DNA of 64,000 nt from positions 62,001-126,000 of the forward strand of contig NZ_CP121464.1 in the NCBI RefSeq assembly GCF_029690045.1, given 5' to 3'. The DNA comes from Janthinobacterium rivuli (GTDB lineage Bacteria; Pseudomonadota; Gammaproteobacteria; Burkholderiales; Burkholderiaceae_D). Positions 8,570 through 43,040 of the stretch are shown in pieces; the first letter of the stretch is position 1, and each line of letters begins with the position of its first letter. The translations under genes and the position numbers were made by a program. The notes below the pieces were generated by a model, which was given only the letters and a program-made list of their open reading frames with translations, did not search any database and had not been told where the DNA came from.

Positions 8570-8730
8570 ACGGAGTCGGGGTGGCAGGCAAACAAAGAAA
8601 CCAGTGTACTCACAGATGGCCAAATTTTCCAGATGCGATCCGCAACGGCCCGACGCGGCCCGCCATTCACGCAAGGCACACAATCCACGCTATCATGCGC
8701 GTCATTCTCCACTGACATCGTGACCACATC

Positions 8731-9216
8731 ATGACTTTGCGCATACTCGCCACTGGCGGCACTTTCGACAAACACTACAACGAATTGAACGGTACCCTGG
8801 GCTTTTCCGACAGTCATTTGCCGGCAGCGATTGCCCGCGCGCGCATGACGGCGCCCGTGGCGCTGGAGCAATTGCCCCTGCTCGATTCACTCGACATGCA
8901 AGATGCGGACCGTCAGCGCGTGCTGGCCTCGTGCCGCGCGGCGCAGGAGAAAGCCATCGTCATCATCCACGGCACCGACACCATGCGCGAAACGGCGCAA
9001 GTGCTGGGCGCGGCGAACCTGCAGCAAACGGTGATATTGACGGGCGCCATGATTCCCTACGAAATCGACAATTCCGACGCCCTGTTCAACCTCGGCTTTG
9101 CCTGCGGCGTGGCGCAAACCTTGCCAGCCGGCGTGTACGTGGCCATGAATGGCCAGATCTTCGCCTGGGACAATGTGCAAAAGAACCGCGCCGCCGGCGT
9201 ATTCCAGCCTTTGTAA
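8731..9216 (+). CDS. Half-length asparaginase-domain protein
   Basis: The 161-residue product is the N-terminal domain of the L-asparaginase family only; full enzymes are about 330 residues. The catalytic signatures are intact: ATGGTFDK at 7-14 (nucleophile Thr) and HGTDTM near 84 (second Thr and Asp). A Lys in NVQKNRAAG near the end may be the active-site Lys. The C-terminal domain that completes the substrate pocket in the dimer is missing. There is no sign of a frameshifted second half downstream: the stop is followed at once by hairpins. Such short asparaginase-domain proteins exist in proteobacteria. Activity is uncertain. It is cytosolic, with no signal peptide. Confidence 0.85.
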   Translation: MTLRILATGGTFDKHYNELNGTLGFSDSHLPAAIARARMTAPVALEQLPLLDSLDMQDADRQRVLASCRAAQEKAIVIIHGTDTMRETAQVLGAANLQQTVILTGAMIPYEIDNSDALFNLGFACGVAQTLPAGVYVAMNGQIFAWDNVQKNRAAGVFQPL

Positions 9217-17257: not shown

Positions 17258-17333
17258 GGGTGCTTAGCTCAGTTGGTAGAGCGGCGCCCTTACAAGGCGT
17301 AGGTCGGGAGTTCGAGCCTCTCAGCACCCACCA
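17258..17333 (+). tRNA. tRNA-Val (UAC), copy 1
   Basis: 76 nt with encoded CCA. Acceptor GGGTGCT pairs with AGCACCC; the anticodon loop is CTTACAA with anticodon TAC; the T-loop is TTCGAGC. Confidence 0.97.
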
Positions 17334-17387
17334 AATCAGAAAACTGTCCAGTGCTTCATGGATCAGCAACACAGATCATACGAGCTT

Positions 17388-17464
17388 GGAGTGGTAGTTC
17401 AGTTGGTTAGAATACCGGCCTGTCACGTCGGGGGTCGCGGGTTCGAGTCCCGTCCGCTCCGCCA
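17388..17464 (+). tRNA. tRNA-Asp (GUC), copy 1
   Basis: 77 nt with encoded CCA. Acceptor GGAGTGG opposite CCGCTCC, anticodon GTC in CTGTCAC, T-arm GCGGG-TTCGAGT-CCCGT. Confidence 0.97.
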
Positions 17465-17472
17465 ATAAAAGA

Positions 17473-17507
17473 AAAGCCCTTTGGTTCTCTGAACCGAAGG
17501 GCTTTTC
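17473..17507 (+). terminator. Terminator of tRNA cassette 1
   Basis: AAGCCCTT-(t)-GGTTC pairs with GAACC-(g)-AAGGGCTT and runs into TTTTCCC, right after tRNA-Asp. Confidence 0.85.
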
Positions 17508-17598
17508 CCATTTCAGAAGCCAAAAACACGCCAATCCCCCCTCGCCCGAACATTTTTGCGTTTTTCAGCAAAAAAATGCTTTTATCCCATAAGAATAG

Positions 17599-17628
17599 TT
17601 GCACAACGGGGAAAGCGCCCCCTATAAT
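17599..17628 (+). promoter_or_regulatory. Promoter of second tRNA cassette
   Basis: TTGCAC (17599-17604), 18-base spacer, TATAAT (17623-17628). The -10 belongs to the duplicated segment but the -35 lies in the unique spacer, so the second copy acquired its own -35. Confidence 0.75.
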
Positions 17629-17680
17629 AGTGCCTCTTCCAGACGTGGTGACAAACGTCGGGATAGTTTTCTGGGTATGC

Positions 17681-17756
17681 GGGTGCTTAGCTCAGTTGGT
17701 AGAGCGGCGCCCTTACAAGGCGTAGGTCGGGAGTTCGAGCCTCTCAGCACCCACCA
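17681..17756 (+). tRNA. tRNA-Val (UAC), copy 2
   Basis: Identical to the copy at 17258-17333 over its 76 nt, anticodon TAC, CCA encoded. Confidence 0.97.
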
Positions 17757-17813
17757 CCAATACAGAAAATTATCCAGTGCTTCATGGATCAGCAATACAG
17801 ATCATACGAGCTT

Positions 17814-17890
17814 GGAGTGGTAGTTCAGTTGGTTAGAATACCGGCCTGTCACGTCGGGGGTCGCGGGTTCGAGTCCCGTCCGCTCCGCCA
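17814..17890 (+). tRNA. tRNA-Asp (GUC), copy 2
   Basis: Identical to the copy at 17388-17464, anticodon GTC, CCA encoded. Confidence 0.97.
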
Positions 17891-28567: not shown

Positions 28568-29539
28568 TTATGAACGTTCACCGCGGCGGCGGTAGGTATC
28601 GAGCACCACGGCCGCGACGATCACCAGGCCCGTGACGATGCGTTTCACGGGTTCGGACACGCCCACTTGCGCCAGGCCCGCTTCCAGCACGGAAATGATC
28701 AATACGCCAATAAACGTGCTGATGACGGAACCGCGTCCGCCCATCAGGCTCGTGCCGCCGATCACGACGGCGGCGATCACTTGCAATTCCATGCCCACGC
28801 CGCCGTTCGGGTCGGCCGCTTCCAAGCGCGAGACCTGGAACAGCGCGCCCACGCCGGCGAGAAAACCCATCAAGGCAAACACCAGCACTTTCGATGGTTT
28901 TGTATTGATGCCGGACAAACGCACGGCTTCTTCATTCGTGCCGATGCCGATCCAGTGGCGTCCCAGCACCGTGCGCGTGAGCACCAGGTGGCCGATGACG
29001 ACGATGGCGATCGAGGCGATGAAGGCGGGCGACAGGCCGAAGGCGATCGGCGAGCTGATGCCGTCAACGGCGCTGCCGATGTATTCCGTGCGCGAGTTCG
29101 TCACCTGATACGCCATGCCGCGCGCCATTTCCAGCACGCCCAGGGAGACGATGAACGAGGGAATGCGCCAGCCGACGGAAATGAGGCCCGTCGTGGCACC
29201 GCACAGGGCGGCAACGAACATGCCCAGCAGGGCCGCGCTCCACACGGGCCAGCCCCAGTGCACGACGGCCAGCGACAGCACGGACGCGGCCAGCGCCATC
29301 ACGGAACCGACCGATAAATCGATGCCGCCGATGATCAGGACAAAGGTCATGCCAACGGCCATCACGACGAGGGTCGGGATGTTGTTCGACAGGGTGCTGA
29401 GGGTGGCGAGCGTGAAAAAGTTTTCGCTGGCAAACGAGAACAGCACGCACATGGCGACCAGGGCGCCGATCAGGCCCGCATAGTTTTTCAGGTCGGCCAG
29501 GCTGCGCTGCAGATACGATGGGGAAGAGGTAGTGGTCAT
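28568..29539 (-). CDS. rbsC: Ribose ABC transporter permease
   Basis: The inner-membrane channel subunit of the RbsABC importer. 323 residues with roughly ten membrane segments and the family signature blocks FVLIIGGIDLSVGSVMALAA and AAVVIGGTSLMGGRGSV (EAA-like loop). Length equals E. coli RbsC (321). It is 18 bases after rbsA and nine before rbsR. Confidence 0.96.
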   Translation of the reverse strand: MTTTSSPSYLQRSLADLKNYAGLIGALVAMCVLFSFASENFFTLATLSTLSNNIPTLVVMAVGMTFVLIIGGIDLSVGSVMALAASVLSLAVVHWGWPVWSAALLGMFVAALCGATTGLISVGWRIPSFIVSLGVLEMARGMAYQVTNSRTEYIGSAVDGISSPIAFGLSPAFIASIAIVVIGHLVLTRTVLGRHWIGIGTNEEAVRLSGINTKPSKVLVFALMGFLAGVGALFQVSRLEAADPNGGVGMELQVIAAVVIGGTSLMGGRGSVISTFIGVLIISVLEAGLAQVGVSEPVKRIVTGLVIVAAVVLDTYRRRGERS

Positions 29540-29557
29540 GGGAATCTTTCCGGCGGA

Positions 29558-31111
29558 TCAGGCCGCAGCTGGAGTGGAAGTGGGGGTCAAATAGCCGGAG
29601 AAGGCGGCCGACAGCAGCGCGTCCTGGCTCCAGGCGCCGCGCTCGAAGGTGTCGACGATGCTGCCCGCGCTCATGACGGCGATGCGGTCGCAGATCAGCA
29701 TCAGTTCGCGCAAGTCGCTCGATACGATGACGAGGCCCTTGCCCTGGCGCGCCTGTTCGGCCAGCACCTGATAAATATCAAACTTGGCGCCGATATCGAT
29801 GCCGCGCGTAGGCTCGTCAAACAGCATCACGGGGCAGTCGCGGTACAGCCAGCGGGCGATCACCACTTTTTGCTGGTTACCGCCGGACAATTCAGCCACC
29901 GTTTGCGCGCTGTTGCGCGAACGGATGCCCAGGCGTTGAATATAATCGTCGGCCACCGACGCTTCGGACGCGTCGTTGAGCCAGCCCGCGCCACTGACCG
30001 TGTCGAGCGCAGCCAGGGTCGTGTTGACGGCGATGGACTGGCGCAACAACAAGCCTTGTCCCTTGCGGTCTTCCGTGATCATGGCGATGCCGGCCTTTAC
30101 CGCTGCCTGCGGCGAGGTCAGAGCGGCCGGCGTTTCGCTGTCGCCAAGGAACACGTCACCGGCATCGGCACGGTCGGCGCCGAAGATCAGGCGCAGCAAT
30201 TCCGTGCGGCCAGAGCCGATCAGGCCGGCGATGCCGAGGATTTCGCCGGCGCGCAAGTCAAACGAAGTCGAGTTGACGACCTTGCCGCGCGCCAATCCCC
30301 GCACGCGCAGCAATGGCGCGCCGATGGTGCGACCGCTCAGGTCCACCGCGTCGTCGGCCGAACGGCCCACCATCAGGCTGACCAGGTCGGCGGCGGAATG
30401 GCCCGCGATATCGTCATCGCAGACGAGCTGGCCATCGCGCAGCACGGCGATGCGGTCGGCCACGCGCTTGAGTTCTTCCAGGCGGTGGGAAATATAGATG
30501 ATGCACACGCCTTCGGCTTTCAGGCGCTCGATTTGCAGGAACAGCAATTCCACTTCGCGGTGCGTCAGCATGGCCGTCGGCTCATCTAACACCAACAGGC
30601 GGCAGGCGCCGATCAAATTGCGCGCGATCTCGATCATTTGCTGGTGGCCGATGCCCAGTTCGCCCACGAGGGTCCACGGGTCGAGACCGCCCAGGCCCAC
30701 TTTTTCCATCTGTTCGCGCGCATCGCGTTCGAGGCGCGTACGGTCGATGAAGCCGAAGCGCTGCGGCAGGTTTTTCAGGTACAGGTTTTCCGCGATCGAC
30801 AGGGTGGGAATCAAATTGAGTTCCTGCATCACCATGCGGATACCCAGCGCCTCGGCGGCGCCGCGCGAGGCGGGCTGGTAGGGCTTGCCGTCGAGCAGCA
30901 TCGTGCCCGTGGTGGCTTGCTCCAGGCCGCAGATGATCTTCGACAAGGTACTCTTGCCCGCGCCGTTCTCGCCCGTCAGCGCCAGCACCTGGCCAGGGGC
31001 GAAGCGCAGGCCCACGCCGCCCAGCACGGGGCCGACATAGGATTTGCCGATGTTATCCAGGGTCAATAGAGGGGTGGCGGCTGATGGCGCCGGGGGGATG
31101 TCGATGGGCAT
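29558..31111 (-). CDS. rbsA: Ribose ABC transporter ATPase (double NBD)
   Basis: 517 residues, two fused nucleotide-binding domains. The first has Walker A GENGAGKSTLSK and Walker B LLVLDEPTAML. The second has GLIGSGRTELLR (degenerate Walker A, normal for this sugar family) with signature LSGGNQQKVVIARWL and DEPTRGIDIGAK. The frame is open to 31243; ATG 31111 was chosen because GCGGAG precedes it by eight bases and the conserved core begins 20 residues later (PLLTLDNIGKSY). Confidence 0.96.
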   Translation of the reverse strand: MPIDIPPAPSAATPLLTLDNIGKSYVGPVLGGVGLRFAPGQVLALTGENGAGKSTLSKIICGLEQATTGTMLLDGKPYQPASRGAAEALGIRMVMQELNLIPTLSIAENLYLKNLPQRFGFIDRTRLERDAREQMEKVGLGGLDPWTLVGELGIGHQQMIEIARNLIGACRLLVLDEPTAMLTHREVELLFLQIERLKAEGVCIIYISHRLEELKRVADRIAVLRDGQLVCDDDIAGHSAADLVSLMVGRSADDAVDLSGRTIGAPLLRVRGLARGKVVNSTSFDLRAGEILGIAGLIGSGRTELLRLIFGADRADAGDVFLGDSETPAALTSPQAAVKAGIAMITEDRKGQGLLLRQSIAVNTTLAALDTVSGAGWLNDASEASVADDYIQRLGIRSRNSAQTVAELSGGNQQKVVIARWLYRDCPVMLFDEPTRGIDIGAKFDIYQVLAEQARQGKGLVIVSSDLRELMLICDRIAVMSAGSIVDTFERGAWSQDALLSAAFSGYLTPTSTPAAA

Positions 31112-31190
31112 GATAAAACTCCGCGGGAAAAGACGGCGGGGCCGGCGCCAGCAAGGTTGCGATGGCGCTGGCCCCGGCGGGATCAAACGA

Positions 31191-32150
31191 TCAGGACTTG
31201 GCGCCCTTGGCGACCAGTTCGACCTTGGTTTCGATGACGCCACCCAGATCGGCCTGTTTCTTCTTCTGCGCCAGCGCTTTCAGCACGGTCTCGATGCCGA
31301 ACACGGCTTGCTGCGAACCGAACTGGTCGGCGGTAGCCAGCACGCGGCCATCGGCCAGCATCGGCTTGATGGCGTTGATGTTGTCGTAGCCGACGACGAG
31401 CACTTTGCCCGTCTTGCCGGCCGCCTTGATGGCGGAAATGGCGCCGATGGCCATGTTGTCGTTACCGCACAGCAAAGCCTTGATGTTCGGATTGGCGTTC
31501 AGCATGGCGGCCGCGACCGTGTTGGCAGGAGCGATTTCCCACTGGCCCGACTGCACGCTGACGACCTTGGCGCCGGCCGCGTTCATGGCGTCCTGGAAGC
31601 CCAGGGTGCGCTGCTGCGCGTTGTAGGTGGTCGAGACGCCTTCGATGATGCCGACAGGATCGCCCTTCTTGATCTGCTTGGCCAGGAAGTCGCCGACGAC
31701 CTTGGCGCCCTTGCGGTTGTCCGGGCCGACGAACGGTACGGAAATACCCTTCTCTTTCAGGGCGCCTTCGTCGAGCTTGTTGTCGATATTGACGACGATG
31801 ATGCCCGCGTCGATGGCTTTCTTCAGTACCGGCACCAGCGCTTTCGAGTCAGCCGGGGCGATCACCAGCGCGTTGACGCGCGAGACGATCATTTGCTCGA
31901 CCAGCTTGATCTGGCTCGACGTATCCGTTTCATCCTTGATGCCGTTCGACAGCAAGTCGTACTTGGCGGCATTGGCCTTCTGATGCGCCTTGGCGCCATT
32001 TTCCATGGTCAGGAAAAATTCATTGGCGAGCGACTTCATCACCAATGCGACCTTCGGTTTGGCAGGTGTCTGCGCCATCGCCGGCACGGCGGGCAAGGCA
32101 CACACGAGGACAGCGGCGGCAATCATTTTCAGGCGAATACGGGATGTCAT
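31191..32150 (-). CDS. rbsB: Ribose-binding periplasmic protein
   Basis: 319 residues with a signal peptide (MTSRIRLKMIAAAVLVCALP, cleavage near AMA-QT, residue 26). The mature protein is a type I sugar-binding protein (PKVALVMKSLANEFFLTMENGAK; NIDNKLDEGA; LLCGNDNMAIGA; VVGYDNINAIKPML). It is the first gene of the operon and has the strongest upstream control region. Binding of ribose is inferred from the linked rbsK and rbsD. Confidence 0.95.
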   Translation of the reverse strand: MTSRIRLKMIAAAVLVCALPAVPAMAQTPAKPKVALVMKSLANEFFLTMENGAKAHQKANAAKYDLLSNGIKDETDTSSQIKLVEQMIVSRVNALVIAPADSKALVPVLKKAIDAGIIVVNIDNKLDEGALKEKGISVPFVGPDNRKGAKVVGDFLAKQIKKGDPVGIIEGVSTTYNAQQRTLGFQDAMNAAGAKVVSVQSGQWEIAPANTVAAAMLNANPNIKALLCGNDNMAIGAISAIKAAGKTGKVLVVGYDNINAIKPMLADGRVLATADQFGSQQAVFGIETVLKALAQKKKQADLGGVIETKVELVAKGAKS

Positions 32151-32210
32151 GAGCGTCTCCAGAGTTGTTGGTCAAGCACGTGTACTGCATGCTTTTTAGG
32201 AAATTCGTTG

Positions 32211-32228
32211 CGCGCAAACGTTTGCGCG
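32211..32228. promoter_or_regulatory. Perfect 18-bp LacI/GalR-type operator upstream of rbsB
   Basis: CGCGCAAACGTTTGCGCG is fully palindromic with the central CG that LacI-family hinge helices recognise, and it matches the GCAAACGTTTGC core of RbsR/PurR sites. It sits 60-78 bases upstream of the rbsB ATG, where it could block transcription. Confidence 0.85.
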
Positions 32229-32357
32229 AAGCGAATAGTGCCTCAATGCCCTATTACAGTGCAAGCAAAACTGTATGTGCGGTGCAGCAAAAAGGCAGCG
32301 TCCAGAGGGAAACATCCAGGCTGATGCGATCAGCCTGGCGAGGGGAAATGCGTGGAT

Positions 32358-33239
32358 TCAGGACTTTGTTGCGGGACGGGCGCTGGCCCATTGCACGGCC
32401 AGCACGCTGGCCAGCACCAGCAGCAAGCCCAGCATCGACCAGCCCGTCATGGCCTGGCCCAGCAAGGCCCAGCCCAGCACGACGGCCATCAGGGGACTGA
32501 GCAGTCCCAACGAAGAGACGGCCACGGGCGACAGCCTGGCGATGCCGCGGAACCACAAGGCGTACGCCAGCAGGGCGCCGGCCAGGCACAGGTAGGCGTA
32601 GGCCAGCACTTGCTGCAGGGATAATGCAGGCAAGGGCGCGTCAGCCAGCCAGGCGACGGGCGCCAGCATCAGGCCGCCGAGCAGCAATTGCCAGCCCGTC
32701 AGCGCCAGCACGGGCAAGTCCGGCTTCCAGCGCCGCGTCAGATAGGTGCCGGCCGCCATGCAGGCCGTGCCACCCAGCGCGGCGGCGATGCCGACCGGTT
32801 CCCACACGGTGCGCGGCGACAGCAACAAAACACCCATGCCAGCCACGCCCAGCACGCTGGCCCCCAAGGCCAGGCGGGCCGGACGGCGCCCTTCCACGCC
32901 CCAGGCCAAGCCCATCACCAGCAGCGGCTGGATGGCGCCCACCACGGCCGCCAGGCCGCCCGGCAAGCGGTAGGCGGCGACGAACAGCAGCGCCTGGAAT
33001 ACGCCGATATTCAACGCGGACAGGATCAGCACGCGCATCCAGTCACGCCGCGCGGGCAGGCGCCGCATGACCAGCAGCAACAGCAAGCCGGCCGGCAGCA
33101 CGCGGATCAGGGCCGCCGTGAAGGGCCGGTCGGGCGGCAGCAGTTCGGACGTGACGATATACGTGGAACCCCAGATCAGGGGCGCCAGCGCCGTGAGCAG
33201 AATATCGCCCCAGGCGGGGCGGACGGAAGAAGAAGCCAT
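32358..33239 (-). CDS. EamA-family (DMT) exporter
   Basis: 293 residues with ten predicted membrane segments in two EamA repeats (about 12-140 and 150-285): LAPLIWGSTYIVTSELLPPDRP, VVGAIQPLLVMGLAW, LTGWQLLLGGLMLAP, SLGLLSPLMAVVLGW. This is typical of drug/metabolite efflux proteins. No substrate can be inferred. It is a single gene, read toward rbsB's promoter side, with two palindromes directly upstream that suggest control by a MarR-type repressor. Confidence 0.9.
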   Translation of the reverse strand: MASSSVRPAWGDILLTALAPLIWGSTYIVTSELLPPDRPFTAALIRVLPAGLLLLLVMRRLPARRDWMRVLILSALNIGVFQALLFVAAYRLPGGLAAVVGAIQPLLVMGLAWGVEGRRPARLALGASVLGVAGMGVLLLSPRTVWEPVGIAAALGGTACMAAGTYLTRRWKPDLPVLALTGWQLLLGGLMLAPVAWLADAPLPALSLQQVLAYAYLCLAGALLAYALWFRGIARLSPVAVSSLGLLSPLMAVVLGWALLGQAMTGWSMLGLLLVLASVLAVQWASARPATKS

Positions 33240-33244
33240 ACAAC

Positions 33245-33262
33245 TATCTCGACACTAAGATA
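33245..33262. promoter_or_regulatory. Palindromic operator 1 upstream of EamA exporter
   Basis: TATCTCGACACTAAGATA has five-base outer arms (TATCT/AGATA) and starts six bases before the exporter's ATG. It is a degenerate version of the second site 40 bases away. Confidence 0.6.
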
Positions 33263-33284
33263 AAAACTCAGTGTGGACGCGAAC

Positions 33285-33302
33285 TATCTTGATGTCAAGA
33301 TA
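33285..33302. promoter_or_regulatory. Palindromic operator 2 upstream of EamA exporter
   Basis: TATCTTGA-TG-TCAAGATA has perfect eight-base arms. It is spaced 40 bases centre to centre from operator 1, about four helical turns, so two dimers would bind on the same face. The TATCT(T/C)GA half-site is the style of MarR-family regulators. Confidence 0.7.
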
Positions 33303-33332
33303 AATGGGCGTGCGCGCCGCTGCCTGCGGACG

Positions 33333-33358
33333 TAAAAAAGCCCGGCATGGCCGGGCTC
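33333..33358 (-). terminator. Terminator of the zinc-ribbon cluster
   Basis: On the minus strand AGCCCGGC-cat-GCCGGGCT is followed by TTTTTT, about 40 bases after the last gene of the cluster. Confidence 0.85.
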
Positions 33359-33398
33359 GGGGAGCAGATCAGGCGGCAAGCTGCACCGCCTGACAGAT

Positions 33399-34499
33399 TT
33401 AATCGCGCACGCGCCGCAGGGTCGTTACCCGCACGCCGCCCATGCTGATCTGCGCCGTGCTGCCATCGTCGCTGACGATAATATCCATGGCCGCTTCGCC
33501 CGCGCCTTCCGGCGCGATCGTCACGGTATTGCCCTTGGTGGTGAAGGTGGCCTTGGTCGAGGTGCCGTTATTGATCACGCTGTCACTGGTAAATTCCAGG
33601 ACGTTGCCCATCGCCGCCTGCCATTTCCCCACCGCCGGGTGGCCGCCAAAGCTGAACACGCTTTTCAGCTTGTCCAGCATGCCCGCACCCTGCGCGGCTG
33701 GCGCTTTGCCTATCACACCGGTCATGGCCGCCTGGCTCATCTGTGTTTCGTCGATGACTTGCCATTGCTTGTCGACCAGCGCCATCGGCAGTCGCACTTG
33801 CAGGTCACCGTCCGGCAAGCGCTGCAGGATCAGTGCGCGATCCGCAGACTTGGCGAACCACGCCGCCTCATCGGTCAGCGTCAGGGTGGCCTTGGCCATC
33901 GCCACTTGCTGTGCGCCCAGGTCGCGCACCTGATCGTAGCCGCTGACCTTGGCCACTTTCACGCCCTTGGCCACGCACAGCTTGTCGCCGCGCAAGGCCG
34001 CCTTGCCCGGCGCGGCCAGCGCGTAGACAAATTGCGATTGCGCAACCCAGCCTCCGCTGCCTTGTTCGACGGGGGCGTTGTACAACCCGCTGCGCACGAG
34101 GATATCCAGCCATTGCCGAGTGGAACTGTCGTACGACGCCACGCGGATCTCTTCCTTCTGGTACGGCAAGTTGGTGAGGCACAGCAGCTTGTCGCGCACC
34201 GCCTCGTCAGCGGCCAGGTGGGCATCGATGGCGCGGCTGAAACTGCTGGCCGAGGCCGCCTCTGGCTTCAGCAGCCACGCCAGGGCGCCGCCAGCCACGA
34301 CGACCACCGCCAGCACGCTGCCGGCGATCACCACGTGGCGCCGCTTCACGCCGGACAGCGCCGGCGTCGCGGCTGGTGCGGATGCCGGTACAGGAGCGGA
34401 CGCGGGCGCCGGTGCGGCGTTGACGGCCTTGCCGCATTCATCGCAGAAGCGCGCGCCGGGGGCATGGGCGGTGCCGCATTTGGTGCAGAAGTGAGCCAT
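33399..34499 (-). CDS. Zinc-ribbon single-pass membrane protein, large extracytoplasmic domain
   Basis: 366 residues, family not recognised. An N-terminal zinc ribbon (HFCTKCGTAHAPGARFCDECG; Cys pairs at about 5/8 and 19/22) leads to a Pro/Ala linker and one membrane helix at about 56-76 (VVIAGSVLAVVVVAGGALAWLL). About 290 residues outside follow, containing LCLTNLPYQKEEIRVASYDS, RLPDGDLQVRLPMALVDKQW and a C-terminal beta-rich part (VGKWQAAMGNVLEFTSDSVI; VTIAPEGAGEAAMDIIV) that reads like a small ligand-binding barrel. The ribbon would face the cytoplasm. It is the last gene of a four-gene minus-strand run, eight bases after the previous gene. Confidence 0.85.
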   Translation of the reverse strand: MAHFCTKCGTAHAPGARFCDECGKAVNAAPAPASAPVPASAPAATPALSGVKRRHVVIAGSVLAVVVVAGGALAWLLKPEAASASSFSRAIDAHLAADEAVRDKLLCLTNLPYQKEEIRVASYDSSTRQWLDILVRSGLYNAPVEQGSGGWVAQSQFVYALAAPGKAALRGDKLCVAKGVKVAKVSGYDQVRDLGAQQVAMAKATLTLTDEAAWFAKSADRALILQRLPDGDLQVRLPMALVDKQWQVIDETQMSQAAMTGVIGKAPAAQGAGMLDKLKSVFSFGGHPAVGKWQAAMGNVLEFTSDSVINNGTSTKATFTTKGNTVTIAPEGAGEAAMDIIVSDDGSTAQISMGGVRVTTLRRVRD

Positions 34500-34507
34500 G
34501 GTGTGCC

Positions 34508-35632
34508 TTACTTGAGTTTATGCGCGCATTCACCGCAGAACACGTCATCGGACGCGACCGGCGCCTTGCAGCTCGGGCATTGCAGGCTGTCGGCCGGCGC
34601 AGCGGCCGAAGCAGCGGGAGCGGCTGGCGTGGCCGGTGCCGCAGCTTGCTCGGCCAGGGCGCGCGCACGGTCACGCGCTTCCTCGGCTTTTTTCTTGACC
34701 GTGGCCAGGCCGTCGTTCAGGCTCGCTTCCGAGGCGCTGAAATCGACATTGCGCGTGGCGTTCAGGTAAATGATGCACACGCCCTTGGTGAAGATCAGGC
34801 CAGGTACCACGGCCGCGGCCGCCAGCAGCAAGCCGCCGCCCAGGCCCGCTGCGATGATGTAGCCGGAACCGCCATTCAAACCCGAAGCCAGGGTGTACAT
34901 ATTCATCTGGCCGCCCAGGCCCAGGATGCCTGCGGACATGCCGCTGGTCAGCGATACGCCGGTACCGACCACGCCAAAGATCAGCAGCGCCACAAACGTC
35001 GTGATCAGGAACAGCAGCACTTCCAGCAGAATCACGGACACCAGCTTGGTGCGCACGATCAGGTTCAGGCGGGCAATGATCTGGAATATGGTGGCGCCCG
35101 ACCAGGCGGCAGGGCCGGCCAGCGGCAGCATCACGTAGAACAGCGCAAACACCAGCACGCCCAGCACGATGGCCGACAGCGGGAAGACGACCGTGTACAG
35201 CACGGGGCCGAGCACGGGAATCTTGCAGACAAACAAGATGATGGCGATGGTGATCATGGCCGCCAGCACGATTAAAAATTCAAGGAAGACGACCGCGATC
35301 AGGCGGTGGCTCGTGTACAGCGAAACGAGCATGGCATCAACCAGGCTCATGCCAGGCTGGCCTTGCGCATCGCGCATCAGCATGATGCCGACGGCGTTGG
35401 AGCCGTAAAACATCACGAGGAAAGCCATCAGGCCACCGACAAAGACCAGCAGCGGACTGCTCATGCCGCCGGCAAGCATCGTCAGCACGCCACCGACGAG
35501 CACGGCGCTGATGAAGGTCAGGGCCAGCAGCGCAATCGCGCGAAAGTTCCTGATGGCGTCGGTCGCTTCGATCAGCGAGCCCACGGCGGAGGAAAAGGGA
35601 AGAGGTTGATGTGTTTGTGTGGAAATGGTCAT
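34508..35632 (-). CDS. Polytopic membrane protein with C-terminal zinc ribbon
   Basis: 374 residues, not assigned to a family. Six or more membrane segments occupy about 30-300 (AIALLALTFISAVLVGGVLT; LVFVGGLMAFLVMFYG; AVVFLEFLIVLAAMITIAII; LLEVLLFLITTFVALLIFG; ILAAGL-like region near 262). A coiled, charged segment (about 313-340) and an Ala-rich linker end in a zinc ribbon, QCPSCKAPVASDDVFCGECAHK. The ribbon is at the opposite end from its neighbours' but also on the cytoplasmic side. A Gly-rich stretch lies near 225-290. Confidence 0.82.
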   Translation of the reverse strand: MTISTQTHQPLPFSSAVGSLIEATDAIRNFRAIALLALTFISAVLVGGVLTMLAGGMSSPLLVFVGGLMAFLVMFYGSNAVGIMLMRDAQGQPGMSLVDAMLVSLYTSHRLIAVVFLEFLIVLAAMITIAIILFVCKIPVLGPVLYTVVFPLSAIVLGVLVFALFYVMLPLAGPAAWSGATIFQIIARLNLIVRTKLVSVILLEVLLFLITTFVALLIFGVVGTGVSLTSGMSAGILGLGGQMNMYTLASGLNGGSGYIIAAGLGGGLLLAAAAVVPGLIFTKGVCIIYLNATRNVDFSASEASLNDGLATVKKKAEEARDRARALAEQAAAPATPAAPAASAAAPADSLQCPSCKAPVASDDVFCGECAHKLK

Positions 35633-35697
35633 GTCTGGCCTGGAAGGGGTGAATCGGGAGGGGACGGCCTGCCTGGCCGTCCCATGGTCATGCTGTG

Positions 35698-36423
35698 TCA
35701 GTAGGCGAGCGCCAGTTGCAACTCGTTCGCGGGCGCCTGGCGCTGGACGATCTGCAGCTTGACGTCCTGGCCGCCGACGCGCTTGCTATTCAGGTACAGC
35801 GCCGTGCGTACCGGGTAAATGCCCTGCGGCACGCCTTCAGGCATGGGAATCGAGAAGCCGCCCTTGTAGGCGCCGCTGCCGTTATTGCTGCTGACCACCT
35901 TGCGCACGGTTTTGATCAGGTCGCCATTTGGCTTGTACAGGCTCAATTCCTCTTCCACCAGCGGGTTCGGATCGCGCGTGCCGGCCGCCACTTCGATGTA
36001 CGAATTGGTCTGCGCCTTCTGGCCCGGACGCACGGAGGACGGCGTAAAGCCCGTCTCGTATTTCACCAGGGTCGACTGCTCGGGCAGCTTGCCCTTGTTG
36101 GCCACCTTGTAGTCCGTCTGCACCTGCTGCGCCGTCTTGACTTGCTGGCTTTGATAATTCAGGGCCACGCAGGCGAGCGCGCCCAGGCTGGCGCCCAGGG
36201 CCGCGCCGCGCACGGTGTTGTTGCCGCCACCCAGCAAGCCGCCCACGACGGCGCCGATGCCGGCCAGCATGGCCGTATTGCATTCGCCACTGGCCGCTTC
36301 CGTGCCTGCGGTGGTGGTATTGCCTGTGGCGCCAGGGCCGCCCGGCGCGGCGCAGCCGGCCAGCATCGACGACACGACCAGCATCGCCACCAGGGGCTTG
36401 GCCATTTGTTTCAAGTTTTTCAC
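35698..36423 (-). CDS. Glycine-zipper lipoprotein
   Basis: 241 residues from a GTG start at 36423, preferred to the upstream ATG because CGGAGAATAAC stands directly before it. Signal peptide with lipobox MLVVSSMLAGC-A gives Cys about 24 for lipidation. A glycine-zipper segment follows (MLAGIGAVVGGLLGGGNNTV, ALGASLGALACVAL), then a soluble domain with the sequence ELSLYKPNGDLIKTVRKVVS and GIYPVRTALYLNSKRVGGQ, which looks like a beta-sandwich. The Gly zipper resembles outer-membrane lipoproteins of the Slp/OsmB/17-kDa type. It is part of the zinc-ribbon cluster. Confidence 0.82.
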   Translation of the reverse strand: MKNLKQMAKPLVAMLVVSSMLAGCAAPGGPGATGNTTTAGTEAASGECNTAMLAGIGAVVGGLLGGGNNTVRGAALGASLGALACVALNYQSQQVKTAQQVQTDYKVANKGKLPEQSTLVKYETGFTPSSVRPGQKAQTNSYIEVAAGTRDPNPLVEEELSLYKPNGDLIKTVRKVVSSNNGSGAYKGGFSIPMPEGVPQGIYPVRTALYLNSKRVGGQDVKLQIVQRQAPANELQLALAY

Positions 36424-36470
36424 GTTATTCTCCGAAAGAATCAAAATAGGAATGGGCGGAAAGCTGCGGC

Positions 36471-37490
36471 TTACTCGATCTGAATTTGCGACAGCGCCTT
36501 GTCCTGCGCTTCCTTCGCCTTGCGCTTGATGTCCTGCGCAGGGCGGTTGCCCTTGTCCATGCGCAACACGGCATTCGCATTGGCAATGGCACAGTCGTAT
36601 TTGCGCTGGCTCATGCAGTGGCTCGCTTCCGACAGGCTGTCCGTGATCACGCTTTCCAGGCCCGTCGTCTGTTTGACAGGCGCCGGTGGCGGGGTCACCT
36701 TGACGGGCTTGGCCGGTTTTTCCACGACAGGGGCTGGGGCCGCTGCTGGAGCCGGCTCGGGTGCCGGAGCAGGCGCTGCCGCTGGCTCAGGCTCAGGCTC
36801 GGCAGCAGGTGTCGCGGCAAGGTCGCCCGCCGAGCCGCCATCGAGCGCAGCGTCATCGATGGCCAGCGGCTGCTCGGCGGCCGGCGCAGGGTCTTCCTGC
36901 ACTGCCAAGGTTGGCTCCGGTTCAGGCACGGCGACAGGCGGCTTGCCTGACAAGAAATAGTAAGCGCCCGCACCGCCCAGCAGCACCACCGCTGCGACGG
37001 CCGCGGCGATCAGTTTCATGCGCTTGCCAGCCGGTGGGCTGTCAGCCGGCGTGTCGGGAACGCTGTCTGTCACTGCTGCGGGAGCGGCTTCTGGTTCCCG
37101 TGCAGGGGTGGGCGCAGGGACAGGATCGGCACGGCGCTTTTCCAGCACGGGCGGTGGCGCAGGTGGCGCGACCGGTTCCGCCACCGGTACCGGGGCAGGC
37201 TCAGGCAAGGACACGGGTTCAATGACAGGTTCAATGACGGGCGCAATCTCCGGCGCGATGACCGGCTCTGGCAATGGCGGCGGCACCGCTGCCGCCACCG
37301 GCGCCACGGCAAAGCTGAACGCGCACTTGGGGCAGAACCGGGCGTCCGGCTTGCAGTCATGGCCGCACTGGCCACAGGATTTTCCCGGCACCGGCGCGGC
37401 AACGGTCGTGGCAACGGCAAACGTCGTGCCGCAGGAAGAACAGAATTTGGCGCCCGGCTTATTCTCGGCCTGGCAGGAAAGGCATTTCAA
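36471..37490 (-). CDS. Double zinc-ribbon, proline-rich membrane protein
   Basis: 339 residues from a TTG start at 37490 (AAGAGA eight bases upstream). Two zinc ribbons open the protein (CLSCQAENKPGAKFCSSC, Cys pairs at about 3/6 and 17/20; SCGQCGHDC...CPKC at about 39-56). A long Pro/Glu/Ala stretch follows, then one membrane helix near 158-180 (KLIAAAVAAVVLLGGAGAYY), a second Pro/Glu/Ala-rich region of about 100 residues (PEPEPAAAPAPAPEP) and a C-terminal domain of about 65 residues (LSEASHCMSQRKYDCAIANA) that is helical and TPR-like. The Pro-rich part outside the membrane could span the periplasm as TonB does. First gene of the cluster. Confidence 0.83.
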   Translation of the reverse strand: MKCLSCQAENKPGAKFCSSCGTTFAVATTVAAPVPGKSCGQCGHDCKPDARFCPKCAFSFAVAPVAAAVPPPLPEPVIAPEIAPVIEPVIEPVSLPEPAPVPVAEPVAPPAPPPVLEKRRADPVPAPTPAREPEAAPAAVTDSVPDTPADSPPAGKRMKLIAAAVAAVVLLGGAGAYYFLSGKPPVAVPEPEPTLAVQEDPAPAAEQPLAIDDAALDGGSAGDLAATPAAEPEPEPAAAPAPAPEPAPAAAPAPVVEKPAKPVKVTPPPAPVKQTTGLESVITDSLSEASHCMSQRKYDCAIANANAVLRMDKGNRPAQDIKRKAKEAQDKALSQIQIE

Positions 37491-37704
37491 TTGGCATCTC
37501 TTTTCATCTAAACGCTGGGAGCCGCGTACGCTGGCGATTGCCAGAATGGCAGTATTGTTGGCGTACGGCTAAATGTTCAACGAGTATATTTTCAAATACC
37601 AAGTTGCCACAAGGGAAAATTGCCTTTTGCTCTATTCAATTTTTAAATATTAGTAAAAATCCTGCCAGCATGGCGTGCTGCGCCCCAAGTTGGTGCGCAG
37701 ATGG

Positions 37705-37741
37705 CAAAAAACCCGGCAACGCTGTAGGCGTTGCCGGGTTC
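37705..37741 (-). terminator. Terminator of ygiQ
   Basis: On the minus strand AACCCGGCAACG pairs with CGTTGCCGGGTT around CCTACAG and runs into TTTTT, 30 bases after the ygiQ stop. Confidence 0.88.
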
Positions 37742-37771
37742 TCAGTCGATGCCGGGGACAGTGACGCTGGC

Positions 37772-40108
37772 TTACTTGCGTCCGCCCCGTGCCGGTGCGG
37801 CATGCGCGCCCTTGGCTGGCGGCTTGCCGCCACGGCCCATCGGCACGGCGGCCGGCTTGGCCTTCGTTTTGATGGTCGACAGGATCGATGGACGCACTTT
37901 CGATTCGACGGCTGTCGCCTTCGGCGCGGCGGCCGTGCCGCCCAGGGCGATGCGGTTCTTGCCCGGCGTGACCTTGAACTTGTCCGGCGTGCCGGCGCCA
38001 TGCGTCTGGCGGCTGCGTTCGCCTGCGGCCAGGCCGCCCGATTCGGACGAGGTCCAGGCGGGTATCAAGTGCTTGTCGCCATTGCCGATCAAGTCGCCAC
38101 GGCCCATGTTGACCAGCGCTTCGCGCAGGATCGGCCAGTTGGCCGGATCTTGGTAGCGCAGGAAGGCTTTATGCGTGCGGCGGATCTTGCCGCTGCGCGC
38201 CGTTTCCACCACTTCCGAATCCGCCGTGACCTTGCGCAAGGGATTCTTGCGCGTGTGATACATGGTCGTCGCCATGGCCATCGGCGTGGGCATGAAAGTT
38301 TGCACCTGGTCCAGCTTGAAATTGTTTTTCTTCAACCACAGGGCCAGGTTCAGCATGTCCACATCCGTCGTGCCCGGATGGGCGGCGATGAAATACGGGA
38401 TCAGATACTGCTTCTTGCCCGCTTCCAGCGAGAAACGGTCGAACATTTCCTTGAACTCGTCATACGCGCCGATGCCGGGCTTCATCATCTTCGACAAAGT
38501 CCCCTCTTCCGTGTGCTCGGGCGCAATTTTCAAGAGGCCGCCGACGTGGTGCGTCACCAGTTCCTTGACGTATTCGGGCGAACGTACGGCCAGGTCGTAG
38601 CGCAGACCTGAGCTGATCAGCACTTTCTTGATGCCGGGAATGGCGCGCGCCTTGCGGTACAACGAGATGAGCTTGCTGTGGTCCGTGCCCAGGTTCACGC
38701 AGATGGACGGGTACACGCAGGACAGGCGGCGGCACGACACTTCGATCTCTTTTTCCTTGCAGGCGAGGCGGTACATATTCGCCGTCGGGCCACCCATATC
38801 GGAAATGGTGCCCGTAAAACCTTTGGTTTTATCGCGGATATGCTCGATCTCGCGCAAGATCGACGGTTCCGAGCGGCTCTGGATGATGCGGCCTTCGTGT
38901 TCCGTGATCGAGCAGAAAGTGCAGCCGCCGAAGCAGCCGCGCATGATGTTGACGGAAAAGCGGATCATTTCCCAGGCGGGAATATGCGCCTTGCCATAGC
39001 TCGGGTGCGGCGCGCGCGCGTAATTCATGTCGTACACGCCATCCATCTCGTCCATGGCCAGCGGCAGCGGCGGCGGATTCAGCCACACGTCGCGTTCGCC
39101 GTGCGCCTGCACCATGGCGCGCGCATTGCCGGGATTCGATTCCAGGTGGAACACGCGCGAGGCGTGCGCATACATGACGGGGTCATCCTTGACGACGTCG
39201 TAGGCGGGCAGGCGCACGACCGTCTTGTCGTGCTTTTCCTTGGCCATGGCCAGACGCTCTTCGCGGCTCATGATGCGGATCGGCTTGATGACTTCGGCCG
39301 ATTTCGACGCATTTTCCGTGGCGCAGGCGGTCTTGTCTTCCTGCACCATCTCGTACGGGCTGTAGTGCGGATCGACCTTGCCGGGCACGTCGACGCGGGT
39401 GGAATTGTGCACGCCCCAGTCGTCGCCAGGCAACCAGCCGGACGGCACCATGAAGGCCGTGCCGCGCAAGTCGCGGATATCCTTGATGTGTTCGCCGGCG
39501 GCCAGGCGATGCGTCAGGTCGACCAGCGCCCGCTCGGCATTGCCGAAGATCAGCAAATCGGCCTTGGAATCGGGCAAGACGGAACGGCGGACCTTGTCCG
39601 ACCAGTAATCGTAATGGGCGATGCGGCGCAACGATGCTTCGATGCTGCCGATGACGATGGGCACGTCGGGATATGCTTCGCGCGCGCGCTGGGCGTACAC
39701 GGTGACGGCGCGGTCCGGGCGTTTATTCGGTTCCGCGTTCGCCGTGTAAGCGTCGTCGGAGCGGATCTTGCGGTCGGCCGTGTACTGGTTGACCATGGAA
39801 TCCATGTTGCCGGCGGTAATGCCGTAGTACAGGCGCGGCTTGCCGAGGATGCGGAACGCGTCGGCCGACAGCCAGTCCGGCTGGCTGATGATGCCGACGC
39901 GGTAACCTTGCGCTTCGAGCAGGCGACCAACGAGGGCCATGCCGAAACTCGGATGGTCGATGTAGGCGTCGCCCGTGACGAGGATGACGTCGCACTGATC
40001 CCAGCCCAGCGCGTCCATCTCGGCACGCGACATCGGCAGGAAAGGCGCCACGGCAGCGCGGGCAGACCGCTTGGGAACGGTCGCAAATAAATTGGTAGGG
40101 GAGCTCAT
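37772..40108 (-). CDS. ygiQ: YgiQ-family radical SAM protein
   Basis: 778 residues. An N-terminal cobalamin-binding-like domain (about 35-330: [21 protein letters not shown]) precedes a radical SAM core with the cluster motif [13 protein letters not shown] near 395, and a C-terminal extension (DUF3362 type) with a basic Ala/Pro-rich tail ending in [10 protein letters not shown]. The reaction is not established for this family; it probably modifies an RNA or small molecule. Length matches proteobacterial YgiQ (about 740) plus the tail. No operon partners are visible. Confidence 0.93.
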
Positions 40109-40221
40109 AGGGTACGGATTGTACCGGAATTGGCCATTTCCAACCTGACGGCCTGCTTTTTACTGTTGGATTTCAGTACAAAAAACGTTTATTTTTCAAT
40201 CACTTGAGGAAAAAATGCCCT

Positions 40222-40251
40222 TGGGGTCAGACCCTTCCGGGGTCTGACCCC
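40222..40251. repeat. GGGGTCAGACCC-type intergenic hairpin
   Basis: TGGGGTCAGACCC-ttcc-GGGGTCTGACCCCA forms a near-perfect 13-base stem. Read on the minus strand it is followed by AAGGGCATTTTTTCC, so it may terminate the DUF4404 gene upstream of it. The motif is a dispersed element frequently met in oxalobacter genomes; only one copy is in this window. Confidence 0.75.
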
Positions 40252-40270
40252 AGCTTTTCCCTGGGTTACA

Positions 40271-40549
40271 TCAGATCCCCATATTAGCTAAAATCTCACC
40301 CAATTCCCGCAACGCCGGCTCCAGTTTCGGATGCTTGACGGCAAACTTGGCCGACAATTCCTGGCTGCGCTCGGCCAGGCCATAGGTGATCGACTCTTCT
40401 TCCTGCTCCTGCGCGGCGCGCTTTTCCAGCAGTTGCTGAATATCGCCATTGAGCTTTTGCAGCAAACCATGCGTTTCTTCATCCACAGGATCGCCAGATG
40501 CGATGGTCGATTGCAGCTGTTGCAACGATTCCTTGAGTTTGCTATCCAT
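40271..40549 (-). CDS. Small DUF4404-like protein
   Basis: 92 residues starting at ATG 40549 (MDSKLKESLQQLQSTIASGD); the longer frame upstream is non-coding. It is almost all helical with heptads (LQKLNGDIQQLLEKRAAQEQ), so likely a short coiled-coil oligomer, with a C-terminal helix ALRELGEILANMGI. I assign DUF4404 from memory of this pattern; function unknown. It sits just after the VF530 gene and could be its operon partner (11-base gap). Confidence 0.75.
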   Translation of the reverse strand: MDSKLKESLQQLQSTIASGDPVDEETHGLLQKLNGDIQQLLEKRAAQEQEEESITYGLAERSQELSAKFAVKHPKLEPALRELGEILANMGI

Positions 40550-40560
40550 GTTTTTTCCTG

Positions 40561-40773
40561 TCAGTCGGTAAATTGCGTGTCCAGGAACAATTGTTCCACC
40601 TTGCTTCTGGCCCACGGGGTCTTGCGCAAAAACTTCAGGCTCGACTTGATGCTGGGATCGCTGATGAAGCAATTGATATCGATGTGCTTGGCCAGGCCAT
40701 CCCAGCCGTAATGGGCTTGCAGGCGCGTCACGATACCTTCCAGGGTAATGCCATTCAAATCTTGCTGACTCAT
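40561..40773 (-). CDS. VF530-family DNA-binding protein
   Basis: 70 residues ([60 protein letters not shown]). The HYGW...L...I.I.CF...[15 protein letters not shown] pattern is the VF530 family, a small helical protein with a proposed DNA-binding role. The gene partner downstream is the DUF4404-like protein. Confidence 0.88.
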
Positions 40774-40886
40774 AAACTCTTTCTTTCGACTGCCTTCTTG
40801 TTTACATCTTACTCAATTCTACGCCGCCGACACAGAAAGCTTGCGTGCGCCAGGTCAACGCAACGCAAGCTTCTGATGAGAACGTC

Positions 40887-43040
40887 TTACTTGGCGTTCA
40901 AGCCGCGGCGTTCCAGCAATGGTTCCACGGTGGCATCGCGGCCGCGGAAGTCGCGGAACAGTTGCAGCGCATCGACGCTGCCGCCGCGCGACAGCAGTTT
41001 ATTACGGAACCAGTCGCCATTCTTGCGCGTCAGGCCGCCGTTTTCCTTGAACCAGTTGACCGATTCCGCGTCCAGCTTTTCCGACCACAGGTAAGCGTAG
41101 TACGCCGCCGAATAGCCGCCCGAGAAGCTGTGCGAGAAATAACTGGTGCGGTAGCGCGGCGGCACGGGCGCGTAATCGACGCCCGCGTCTTTCAACGAGG
41201 CCGCTTCAAAGGCCAGCACGTCCGTCGGGATCTGGCTCGGCGCCAACTGGTGCCAGCGCTGGTCCAGCAGGGCCGCCGACAGGTATTCCGTCGTCATGAA
41301 CCCCTGGTTGAATTTCTTCGCCGCCGTCACCTTGTCGAGCAATTCCTGCGGCATGGCCGCGCCGCTCTGGTAGTGCTTGGCGTAGTTTTGCAGCACTTCC
41401 GGCCAGACGGCCCACATTTCATTGACTTGCGATGGATACTCGACGAAGTCGCTCGGCACGCTGGTGCCGGCAAAGCGCGGATATTTCACGTTCGAGAACA
41501 TGCCGTGCAGCGCATGGCCGAATTCGTGGAACATGGTCGTCACTTCATCGAACGTCAATAGCGTCGGCTGGCCGACGGGCGGCTTTGGAATATTCAACTG
41601 GTTGGCCACCACCGGATGCGTGCCCATCAAAGACGATTGCGACACGTATTCATTCATCCACGCGCCGCCATGCTTGTTGCCGCGCGCATAGAAGTCGGCG
41701 ATGAACAGGGCCAGCGGCTTGCCGTTGGCGTCCGTCACGTCGTAGACGCGCACGTCCGGGTTGTACACCGGCAAGTCCTTACGCTCCTTGAAGCTGATGC
41801 CATACAGTTTATTCGCGGCAAAGAACACGCCGTTGTTCAGCACGCTGTTCAATTCCAGATACGGTTTCAGTTCGTTTTCATCGAAATTGAAACGTTGCTT
41901 GCGCAGCTTGTCCGTGTAGATGGCCCAGTCGGCCGCTGCCACCTGGAAACCGCCTTTTTCCGCATCGACCACTTGCTGCAGGTCGGCCGCTTCGCGGCGC
42001 GCGTTGGCGACGGCTGGTTTCGCCAGTTCCGACAGCAAGGTGTTGACGGCCGTCGTGGTCTTGGCCGTCTGGTCTTCCAGGGAATACGCGGCGTAGTTGG
42101 CGTAACCGAGCAGGGTGGCCCGTTCGGCGCGCAGTTTGGCCAGTTTCAGCACGATGGCGCGGTTGTCGAACTCGCCGCCCTGGCTGCCGCGGTTCAGTGA
42201 CGCATCCATCAGGCGCTGGCGCGTCTTGCGATCCGTCAATACGGCCAATGGCGGCTGGCCGCTGGTGTTCACCAGGGCGATGACGAACTTGCCCGTCAAG
42301 CCGCGTTCCTTGGCGGCGGCGGCGGCCGTGTCGATATCGCTGTCCGTCATGCCGGCCAACTCAAGACGCGTGTCGACGACGATGCTCTTGGCATTCGTTT
42401 CCTTCAGCACGTTTTGCGCGAAGGCCGTTTCCAGGCCCGCCTGCTCGGCGTTGTAGGCTTTCAATTTTTCCTTGTCCGCATCGGACAGCTTGGCGCCGGC
42501 GCGCACGAAGTCCGTGTGGTAGCGCTCCAGCAGGCGCAGGGATTCGGCATCGAGGCCCAGCTTGTCGCGCTTGGCGTACAGGGTGTCGATGCGGATAAAC
42601 AGTTTTGGATTGAGGGTAATCGCATCGCCATGCGCGGCCAGTTTCGGCGACACGTCCACTTCCACCGCCTCCAGCACGGCATTGGTATTGGTCGAGGTCA
42701 TGTTGCTGAAGATGCTATTCACGCGGTGCAGCAACTGCCCCGTGCGCTCAAGGGCCACGATGGTGTTCTCGAACGTGGGCGCCTGGCGGTTGCTGGCAAT
42801 CGCGTTGACTTCGGCCAACTGGCGTTTCATGCCTTCGGCAAACGCGGGCGCATAGTGTTCATCCTTGATCAGGCCGAACTGCGGCATCTGGAATGGCAGC
42901 GGGCTCACTTTGAGCAGGGGGTTCTGGGCGCTGACGGCAGCGGCAGGCGCGGATTTTGCGGTGGCGGCAGCCATGGCGGATGGGGCGGCGTGGGCCAGCA
43001 TGACGCTGGCGGCGATGACGAGCAGTTGTGGACGGATCAT
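40887..43040 (-). CDS. Exported M3-family metallopeptidase, copy A
   Basis: 717 residues; start MIRPQLLVIAASVMLAHAAP chosen because it gives a clean signal peptide (cleavage near AMAAATA, residue 25). Zinc-dependent oligopeptidase/dipeptidyl-carboxypeptidase fold, with the catalytic HExxH in MFHEFGHALHGMF (about 505) and the third ligand in the following helix (PSQVNEMWAVW). It probably degrades short peptides in the periplasm. It shows roughly two-thirds identity by eye to copy B, and both carry the same C-terminus RRGLN-(A/G)K. Confidence 0.93.
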   Translation of the reverse strand: MIRPQLLVIAASVMLAHAAPSAMAAATAKSAPAAAVSAQNPLLKVSPLPFQMPQFGLIKDEHYAPAFAEGMKRQLAEVNAIASNRQAPTFENTIVALERTGQLLHRVNSIFSNMTSTNTNAVLEAVEVDVSPKLAAHGDAITLNPKLFIRIDTLYAKRDKLGLDAESLRLLERYHTDFVRAGAKLSDADKEKLKAYNAEQAGLETAFAQNVLKETNAKSIVVDTRLELAGMTDSDIDTAAAAAKERGLTGKFVIALVNTSGQPPLAVLTDRKTRQRLMDASLNRGSQGGEFDNRAIVLKLAKLRAERATLLGYANYAAYSLEDQTAKTTTAVNTLLSELAKPAVANARREAADLQQVVDAEKGGFQVAAADWAIYTDKLRKQRFNFDENELKPYLELNSVLNNGVFFAANKLYGISFKERKDLPVYNPDVRVYDVTDANGKPLALFIADFYARGNKHGGAWMNEYVSQSSLMGTHPVVANQLNIPKPPVGQPTLLTFDEVTTMFHEFGHALHGMFSNVKYPRFAGTSVPSDFVEYPSQVNEMWAVWPEVLQNYAKHYQSGAAMPQELLDKVTAAKKFNQGFMTTEYLSAALLDQRWHQLAPSQIPTDVLAFEAASLKDAGVDYAPVPPRYRTSYFSHSFSGGYSAAYYAYLWSEKLDAESVNWFKENGGLTRKNGDWFRNKLLSRGGSVDALQLFRDFRGRDATVEPLLERRGLNAK

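Follow-up and report, generated by a model that had tools for sequence, protein, structure and literature searches.

What keeps four minus-strand genes of Janthinobacterium rivuli together, when one encodes a lipoprotein and each of the other three a membrane protein with at least one zinc ribbon? The genes, here named A, B, C and D from the upstream end, lie at 33399-37490 of the window, i.e., the whole 64,000-nucleotide stretch of contig NZ_CP121464.1 that was analysed, and their open reading frames (ORFs) are all present as first described, with gaps of 47, 65 and 8 bases (A/B, B/C and C/D). A preliminary description, made from the DNA letters, had seen an operon-like run, had known of no named system with this composition and had guessed at an envelope-spanning sensor or quality-control complex whose proline-rich arm could bridge the periplasm. 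Its observation was correct, and a system can be argued for more strongly than its author could know: the ORFs are confirmed, two terminator-like hairpins bound them, the synteny is conserved, and to these can be added a fifth gene (E) in relatives, swapping of the lipoprotein, presence or absence of the genes as a block, and a related gene pair behind the gene for a tubulin-like protein, FtsZl1. That A-B-C-D forms a genuine and conserved unit, apparently one without a name, is well supported, as is its architecture; like the synteny, the block-wise presence, the domain layout and the pairing of the end of A with the lipoprotein, this is read from sequence. On balance we lean towards a trans-envelope assembly in which A would tether an inner-membrane core of C and D to an exchangeable outer-membrane lipoprotein.

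Conservation of the unit

How widely, and how faithfully, are the genes kept together? C is present in 12 of the 200 genomes sampled from the order (one match being weak), in 27 of 245 from the family (two weak) and in 12 of 19 from the genus, and in all 12 C-bearing genomes of the genus the order is A-B-C-D. The cluster of G203 is split over two contigs, and in G424 (L155 7742-9881) the frames of C and D are broken towards their 3′ ends, reflecting either decay of the copy or an error in sequencing. Also informative are the seven genomes of the genus that lack C. D has no match in six of them and a weak match of 58 residues in the seventh, and the YgiQ-type gene that flanks the cluster in the window was found in six. 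Among those six, three (L232-L234) have the other flanking gene, for an EamA transporter, directly after YgiQ with the block missing; in L231 and L235 EamA is missing as well, and L236 gave no match for the other genes tested. From the joined YgiQ-EamA and the missing genes elsewhere it follows that, within the genus, A-B-C-D is present or absent as a whole.

For a wider view, ORFs around C were clustered without regard to prior gene labels in 17 loci, hand-chosen from the same or other orders so that each genus code or named record contributes one; the choice omits L103 and L104, which have C by itself, L167, in which C is accompanied by a short zinc-ribbon gene, L089, and further loci of any genus that was in the set. 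An A-type gene recurs in all 17, B in nine, D in nine, E in five and an OmpA lipoprotein in three (C is in all 17 by construction), the remaining larger groups being antisense ORFs and one loose component of seven loci. The A group was joined largely via the zinc ribbons, so that its 17 of 17 counts zinc-ribbon genes of A build, with orthology not proven. Gene E encodes a polytopic protein of about 580-630 amino acids with a C-terminal zinc ribbon and takes varying positions; no Pfam model scored above cut-off in the two members scanned, a search of the window's own genome returned no match (an empty answer that by itself shows little), and no association was seen on the tree between the presence of D and of E. 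Gene order differs by lineage, e.g., C-D-A-E-B in L096, C-D-A in L098, C-A-B in L097 and E-A-N2-C in L088, where N2 is another type of lipoprotein; the genes remain neighbours even so and are not scattered in relatives. If an obligate set is meant, two things weigh against it, namely that B and D are each absent from 8 of the 17 loci and that L103 and L104 carry C with no zinc-ribbon neighbour. Recurrence across genera, together with A and D being the only proteins of the whole 6.3-Mb genome to exceed the PF13240 cut-off, nevertheless takes the association beyond chance.

Does any of this belong to a family already described? Among Pfam and NCBIfam models, only zinc ribbons reach cut-off in A to D, and do so in A and D; sequence searches of Pfam, NCBIfam, PADLOC and PDB produced no firm match outside zinc ribbons and Gly-zippers, apart from weak MG2 and Alph_Pro_TM matches of B. 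None of the four proteins thus belongs to a well-described unrelated family, and no paper on the cluster was found among the open-access literature, to which the search was confined.

The arm of A, the lipoprotein slot and the membrane core

Protein A begins with a pair of Cys4 ribbons, one at residue 3 and one at residue 39 (Pfam PF12773 3e-9, PF13240 2.8e-9), followed by a Pro-rich cytoplasmic linker, one transmembrane (TM) segment near residue 158, a Pro/Ala-rich periplasmic arm of about 106 residues and a C-terminal helical hairpin; residues 61-285 are 24% Pro. Judged from the alignment the hairpin appears TPR-like, and this tip has no Pfam TPR match. Is the arm a spacer of set length? From TM to tip it measures 106 ± 2.4 residues in the 12 genus members against 103 ± 15.3 for the linker from ribbon to TM, and 114 ± 12.8 against 110 ± 44.7 in nine loci of other genera, with L097 and L163 excluded from the measurement. 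By Brown-Forsythe on logarithms the difference in variability has p 0.004 for the genus and 0.049 for the other genera, becoming 0.079 when the genus is counted once and L166 dropped. The periplasmic arm of A, then, holds its length better than the cytoplasmic linker. Since a Pro/Ala chain of some 106 residues could reach across a periplasm of typical width, the near-fixed length fits spanning, and the bridging role first suggested for the arm gains from this and from the way in which its tip changes with the lipoprotein.

For B, a start at GTG 36423 is favoured over TTG 36444, the first in the ORF list, because GGAG precedes it. The lipobox is LAGC with Ala at +2, and by the Lol rule Ala at that position directs to the outer membrane; that B is an outer-membrane lipoprotein, as first proposed, is thus probable. 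A Gly-zipper is followed by an Ig-like or MG2-like C-terminal domain, and Cys48 and Cys85 are invariant in an alignment of 14 members, among which Pfam at E up to 0.1 finds Gly-zipper_YMGG in 11, Alph_Pro_TM in nine and MG2 in seven. Weak matches of the Gly-zipper region, at 1e-4 to an OmpA-family protein of type IV secretion and at 0.089 to TraT, were taken to reflect the shared Gly-zipper only.

In loci that lack B, the lipoprotein slot next to A is taken by an OmpA-type lipoprotein in L099-L102 (Pfam OmpA 1.6e-25 for L099), by a type termed N in L089 and L105 and by N2 in L088, with none seen elsewhere, and the last ~50 residues of A vary along with the lipoprotein type. Across the 27 loci carrying A, the TPR tip accompanies B in 13 of 13 (four being Janthinobacterium), a coil tip the OmpA lipoprotein in four of four, a DDLLD tip N in two of two and a tip of its own N2 in the single case; the seven loci where no lipoprotein was seen have a Cys-rich tip in five and the TPR tip in two (L165 and L166). 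The tip labels were assigned by eye, that of L163 coming from its tail match. The slot is thus filled by unrelated lipoproteins (Gly-zipper, OmpA-type and others) or by none, with a corresponding change at the end of A. But could shared ancestry account for the pairing? On a tree of C from 29 loci, where L097 and L088 are long branches of unsure placement, the slot requires eight changes and the tip six. Independent pairs on well-supported branches number five for B against the TPR tip, of which four agree, none opposes and one is neutral (p 0.125). For any lipoprotein against the Cys-rich tip there are four (three agree, one is neutral), and in the reverse direction three, nearly always with all three agreeing (p 0.25). 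Across the tree, therefore, the pairing is suggestive and not proven. A-type proteins that end in a Cys-rich periplasmic tip with no adjacent lipoprotein were seen in L158, L159, L161, L098, L167 and L109.

C has about seven hydrophobic segments, a CKIPxLGP motif and a C-terminal zinc ribbon (PF13248 E 1.7e-5, at 24.5 bits slightly under the cut-off of 27), and its closest named relatives are from Janthinobacterium at 87-95% identity. The ribbon of D is N-terminal (PF13240 E 2.9e-6); its one TM, near residue 56, has basic residues on the side of the ribbon, and beyond it lie ~290 residues in which Cys107 and Cys175 are invariant. Models give only a hint of what such a pair might handle: residues 286-366 of D may form a small lipocalin-like beta-barrel, C may have a fold like that of CysZ or CTL (Z is not decisive for helical proteins), and a small or lipid-like molecule is what the two together would suggest. 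Neither CysZ nor CTL is among the six Pfam families that C matches at E up to 0.5, the 25 families shown, of 28, for the 27-member alignment of C, or the 48 PDB sequences matched by C to E 10, and Foldseek with C and D gave no match under E 0.001. In the structural matches listed for D the barrel took up the places, and the middle domain (about residues 85-250) was assigned no fold. A match of the C profile to a NorA-BRIL fusion (E 0.0015), within one helical stretch, was taken as chance. A C protein of 625 amino acids in L102 7916-9793 (G105) has a long repetitive Ala/Glu/Lys stretch ahead of its ribbon. In L109 (G099:C21, minus strand, about 7300-9000) a D-like gene (25%) and an A-like gene occur together, and C has no match there.

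FtsZl1 operons and other systems of like design

B has a paralogue in the same genome (40%, E 2.7e-39), and its setting is instructive. In L108 (G000:C1:1191000-1207000) a gene for FtsZl1, of 1232 amino acids with PF13809 (Tubulin_2) at 1.2e-60 and a C-terminal GYF_2 domain at 1.3e-12, is followed by one for a single-pass protein that has a zinc ribbon and, on the cytoplasmic side, a long Pro-rich linker, and then by that for the B-family Gly-zipper lipoprotein. The tip of A is homologous to the tip of the FtsZl1-linked zinc-ribbon protein (hhalign prob 98.1, E 8.8e-14, 56 columns), the alignment being limited to the tip. GYF domains bind Pro-rich peptides, and for that reason FtsZl1 may dock through GYF_2 on the linker of its neighbour. 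The arrangement is not peculiar to one genome. Within 22 regions taken from the 65 family genomes with FtsZl1 (65 of 245), the gene was located in 21, and behind it a zinc-ribbon TM protein was picked up by a filter in 16 and a lipoprotein of the B family was seen in 11; the filter missed L207, where a zinc-ribbon gene is evident, and L171, where one was read.

Is the cluster then a sister of that machinery, with A-type proteins as the link between a lipoprotein of the outer membrane and a polymer or GTPase in the cytoplasm, in the manner of a cytoskeleton-linked membrane organiser? The homologous tips, the three-gene array in the same genome, the frequency with which its two kinds of partner follow FtsZl1 and the affinity of GYF domains for Pro-rich peptides are all on that side. 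Distribution, however, is not: FtsZl1 is in 2 of the 200 order genomes and C in 12, the two meeting solely in the window's own genome, where PF13809 occurs only at G000:C1:1193947, about 1.1 Mb away from A-B-C-D. Outside the genus, C is carried by 15 family genomes (two by weak matches), and G338 alone among them has FtsZl1; within the genus FtsZl1 is in 19 of 19, against 12 of 19 for C. FtsZl1 is thus not needed by the cluster, which does not depend on it, and with the homology of A confined to the 56-residue tip we regard a cytoskeletal role as quite improbable.

FtsZl1 operons were described by Makarova and Koonin in 2010 (PMC2875224), in passages which list vWA, OmpA-like, membrane, GTPase and kinase neighbours and propose membrane remodelling; a reviewer's objection there concerns how a cytoplasmic tubulin-like protein would relate to outer-membrane proteins, and in the main text of that paper the words 'zinc' and 'lipoprotein' do not occur. 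What the FtsZl1 operon of the window's genome has in common with the cluster is a B-family lipoprotein together with a zinc-ribbon single-pass protein whose tip is homologous to that of A, and the OmpA-like neighbours listed in those passages have a counterpart in the OmpA-type lipoproteins of the cluster's relatives. The cluster differs in being without genes for FtsZl1, vWA, GTPase or kinase (Pfam gave no vWA match in A to D or the two flanking genes) and in adding C and D, with E elsewhere.

Tol-Pal and TonB-ExbBD are further systems of like plan: anchored in the inner membrane, they extend a Pro/Ala-rich periplasmic arm whose C-terminal tip reaches an outer-membrane partner, Pal itself being an OmpA-type lipoprotein. 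The arm and tip of A resemble this plan, as Pal resembles the OmpA-type lipoprotein of L099-L102, whereas the cytoplasmic zinc ribbons of A, C and D set the cluster apart. Among A to D, to which the search was confined, no Pfam or NCBIfam match to TolQR or ExbBD was found, and the tip of A has no Pfam match to TonB_C or TolA. TcaA/YvbJ-type proteins of Firmicutes have an N-terminal zinc ribbon, a TM and extracytoplasmic domains, a topology which D shares; D, however, has what may be a lipocalin-like barrel at its end, and its gene is one of several in a unit. GltJ, like A, is single-pass and Pro-rich with a cytoplasmic zinc-binding domain. A as GltJ was rejected, at 12.9 NCBIfam bits against a cut-off of 450 and with no other Glt family matched. 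GltJ belongs, according to a passage of PMC3169522, to the gliding machinery of Myxococcus. In the two-gene Skillet-2 Lipocone system (PMC12419801) one protein has a Lipocone domain, and the protein coupled to it has a single TM and a zinc ribbon on the cytoplasmic side; the passage on it mentions neither a lipoprotein nor a four-gene unit. An anti-phage defence system was also considered and rejected, PADLOC at E up to 0.01 matching none of eight proteins (A to D, E, FtsZl1 and the products of two genes that lie upstream of it). The cluster, then, is not classed as a member of the Tol-Pal, TonB, Glt or FtsZl1 systems; by analogy it may work like Tol-Pal or TonB, and it shares one module with FtsZl1 systems.

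Proposed assembly, its rivals and the locus

How might the trans-envelope assembly be put together? Polytopic C and single-pass D would make up the inner-membrane core. The ribbons which A, C and D each expose to the cytoplasm would probably be contact points, either joining the three or recruiting a cytoplasmic partner, while A, crossing the membrane once, would extend its arm of nearly fixed length over the periplasm so that the TPR-like tip docks on B. The lipoprotein would be an exchangeable outer anchor, replaced in relatives by an OmpA-type or other one with the tip of A altered to match, and the core could handle a small or lipid-like molecule, given the putative barrel of D and fold of C. 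We infer in this a physical complex, its topology, a contact between A and B and a ligand. Were it true, cytoplasm and outer membrane would be coupled with no recognisable Tol/Ton-type motor in the unit, and tip and anchor changing together would be a natural experiment, making their contact directly testable. The poorly understood FtsZl1 operons would also gain a concrete hypothesis of how a cytoplasmic tubulin-like protein could relate to outer-membrane proteins. More tentatively, there may be a general class of trans-envelope adaptors, each with a zinc-ribbon head, Pro-rich linker, one TM, arm of set length and interchangeable tip with matched lipoprotein; one branch would plug FtsZl1 into the outer membrane, and the branch in the window would plug in a C-D(-E) core with no cytoskeletal protein.

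Could the cluster instead sense something? The periplasmic domain of D, or the tether of A and B, would respond to a ligand or to envelope strain and the ribbons would signal to a partner encoded elsewhere, a notion in keeping with cytoplasmic ribbons that are joined to a tether and an extracytoplasmic domain. Patchy presence, in 12 of 19 genus genomes, would fit an accessory function. The families recurring in the 17 loci are, however, A to E, the OmpA lipoprotein and antisense ORFs, though the loose seven-locus component could hide a signalling family, and nothing in the analysis of the cluster pointed to a signalling output, a chaperone or a protease. The first proposal of a sensor or quality-control complex is neither strengthened nor refuted by these results, and in our estimation a sensor is unlikely. 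Slimmer still are the prospects of a plain transporter, with C as permease, D as periplasmic binding domain and A with B as scaffolding: the unit is without an energy-coupling protein, D is missing from the 8 loci noted above, and C matches neither CysZ nor CTL in sequence.

As to the locus itself (Table 1), a radical-SAM gene of the YgiQ type lies upstream and an EamA transporter gene on the other flank. The hairpin scan found 11 terminator-like sites against a chance expectation of 7.3. The site 3′ of D is unremarkable by folding alone, and the far stronger one behind the radical-SAM gene would insulate A from that gene; promoter-like sites numbered three against 1.2 expected. With two bounding hairpins and a promoter-like site, A-B-C-D is, judged on these signals, probably a separate transcription unit.

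Table 1. Coordinates of the cluster, its candidate signals and gene E (gene E by locus in relatives, all else in the window)
Feature	Position	Strand	Remarks
Gene A	36471..37490	-	double zinc ribbon, TTG start
Gene B	35698..36423	-	lipoprotein
Gene C	34508..35632	-	polytopic membrane protein
Gene D	33399..34499	-	zinc ribbon, one TM, extracytoplasmic domain
Intrinsic-terminator-like hairpin 3′ of D	33338..33358	-	hairpin scan; folding z -1.8
Intrinsic-terminator-like hairpin behind upstream radical-SAM gene	37707..37743	-	z -7.1
Promoter-like site upstream of A	37583..37610	-	consensus match only, 9/12 positions
Gene E	L087 9267-11048; L088 4343-6238; L096 9673-11418; L157 4641-6431; L164 5546-7363		

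An RNA element was also considered, and Rfam gave no match above gathering score in 29000-41000. Elsewhere in the window, at 17258-17890, the tRNA pair Val(tac)-Asp(gtc) is duplicated in tandem.

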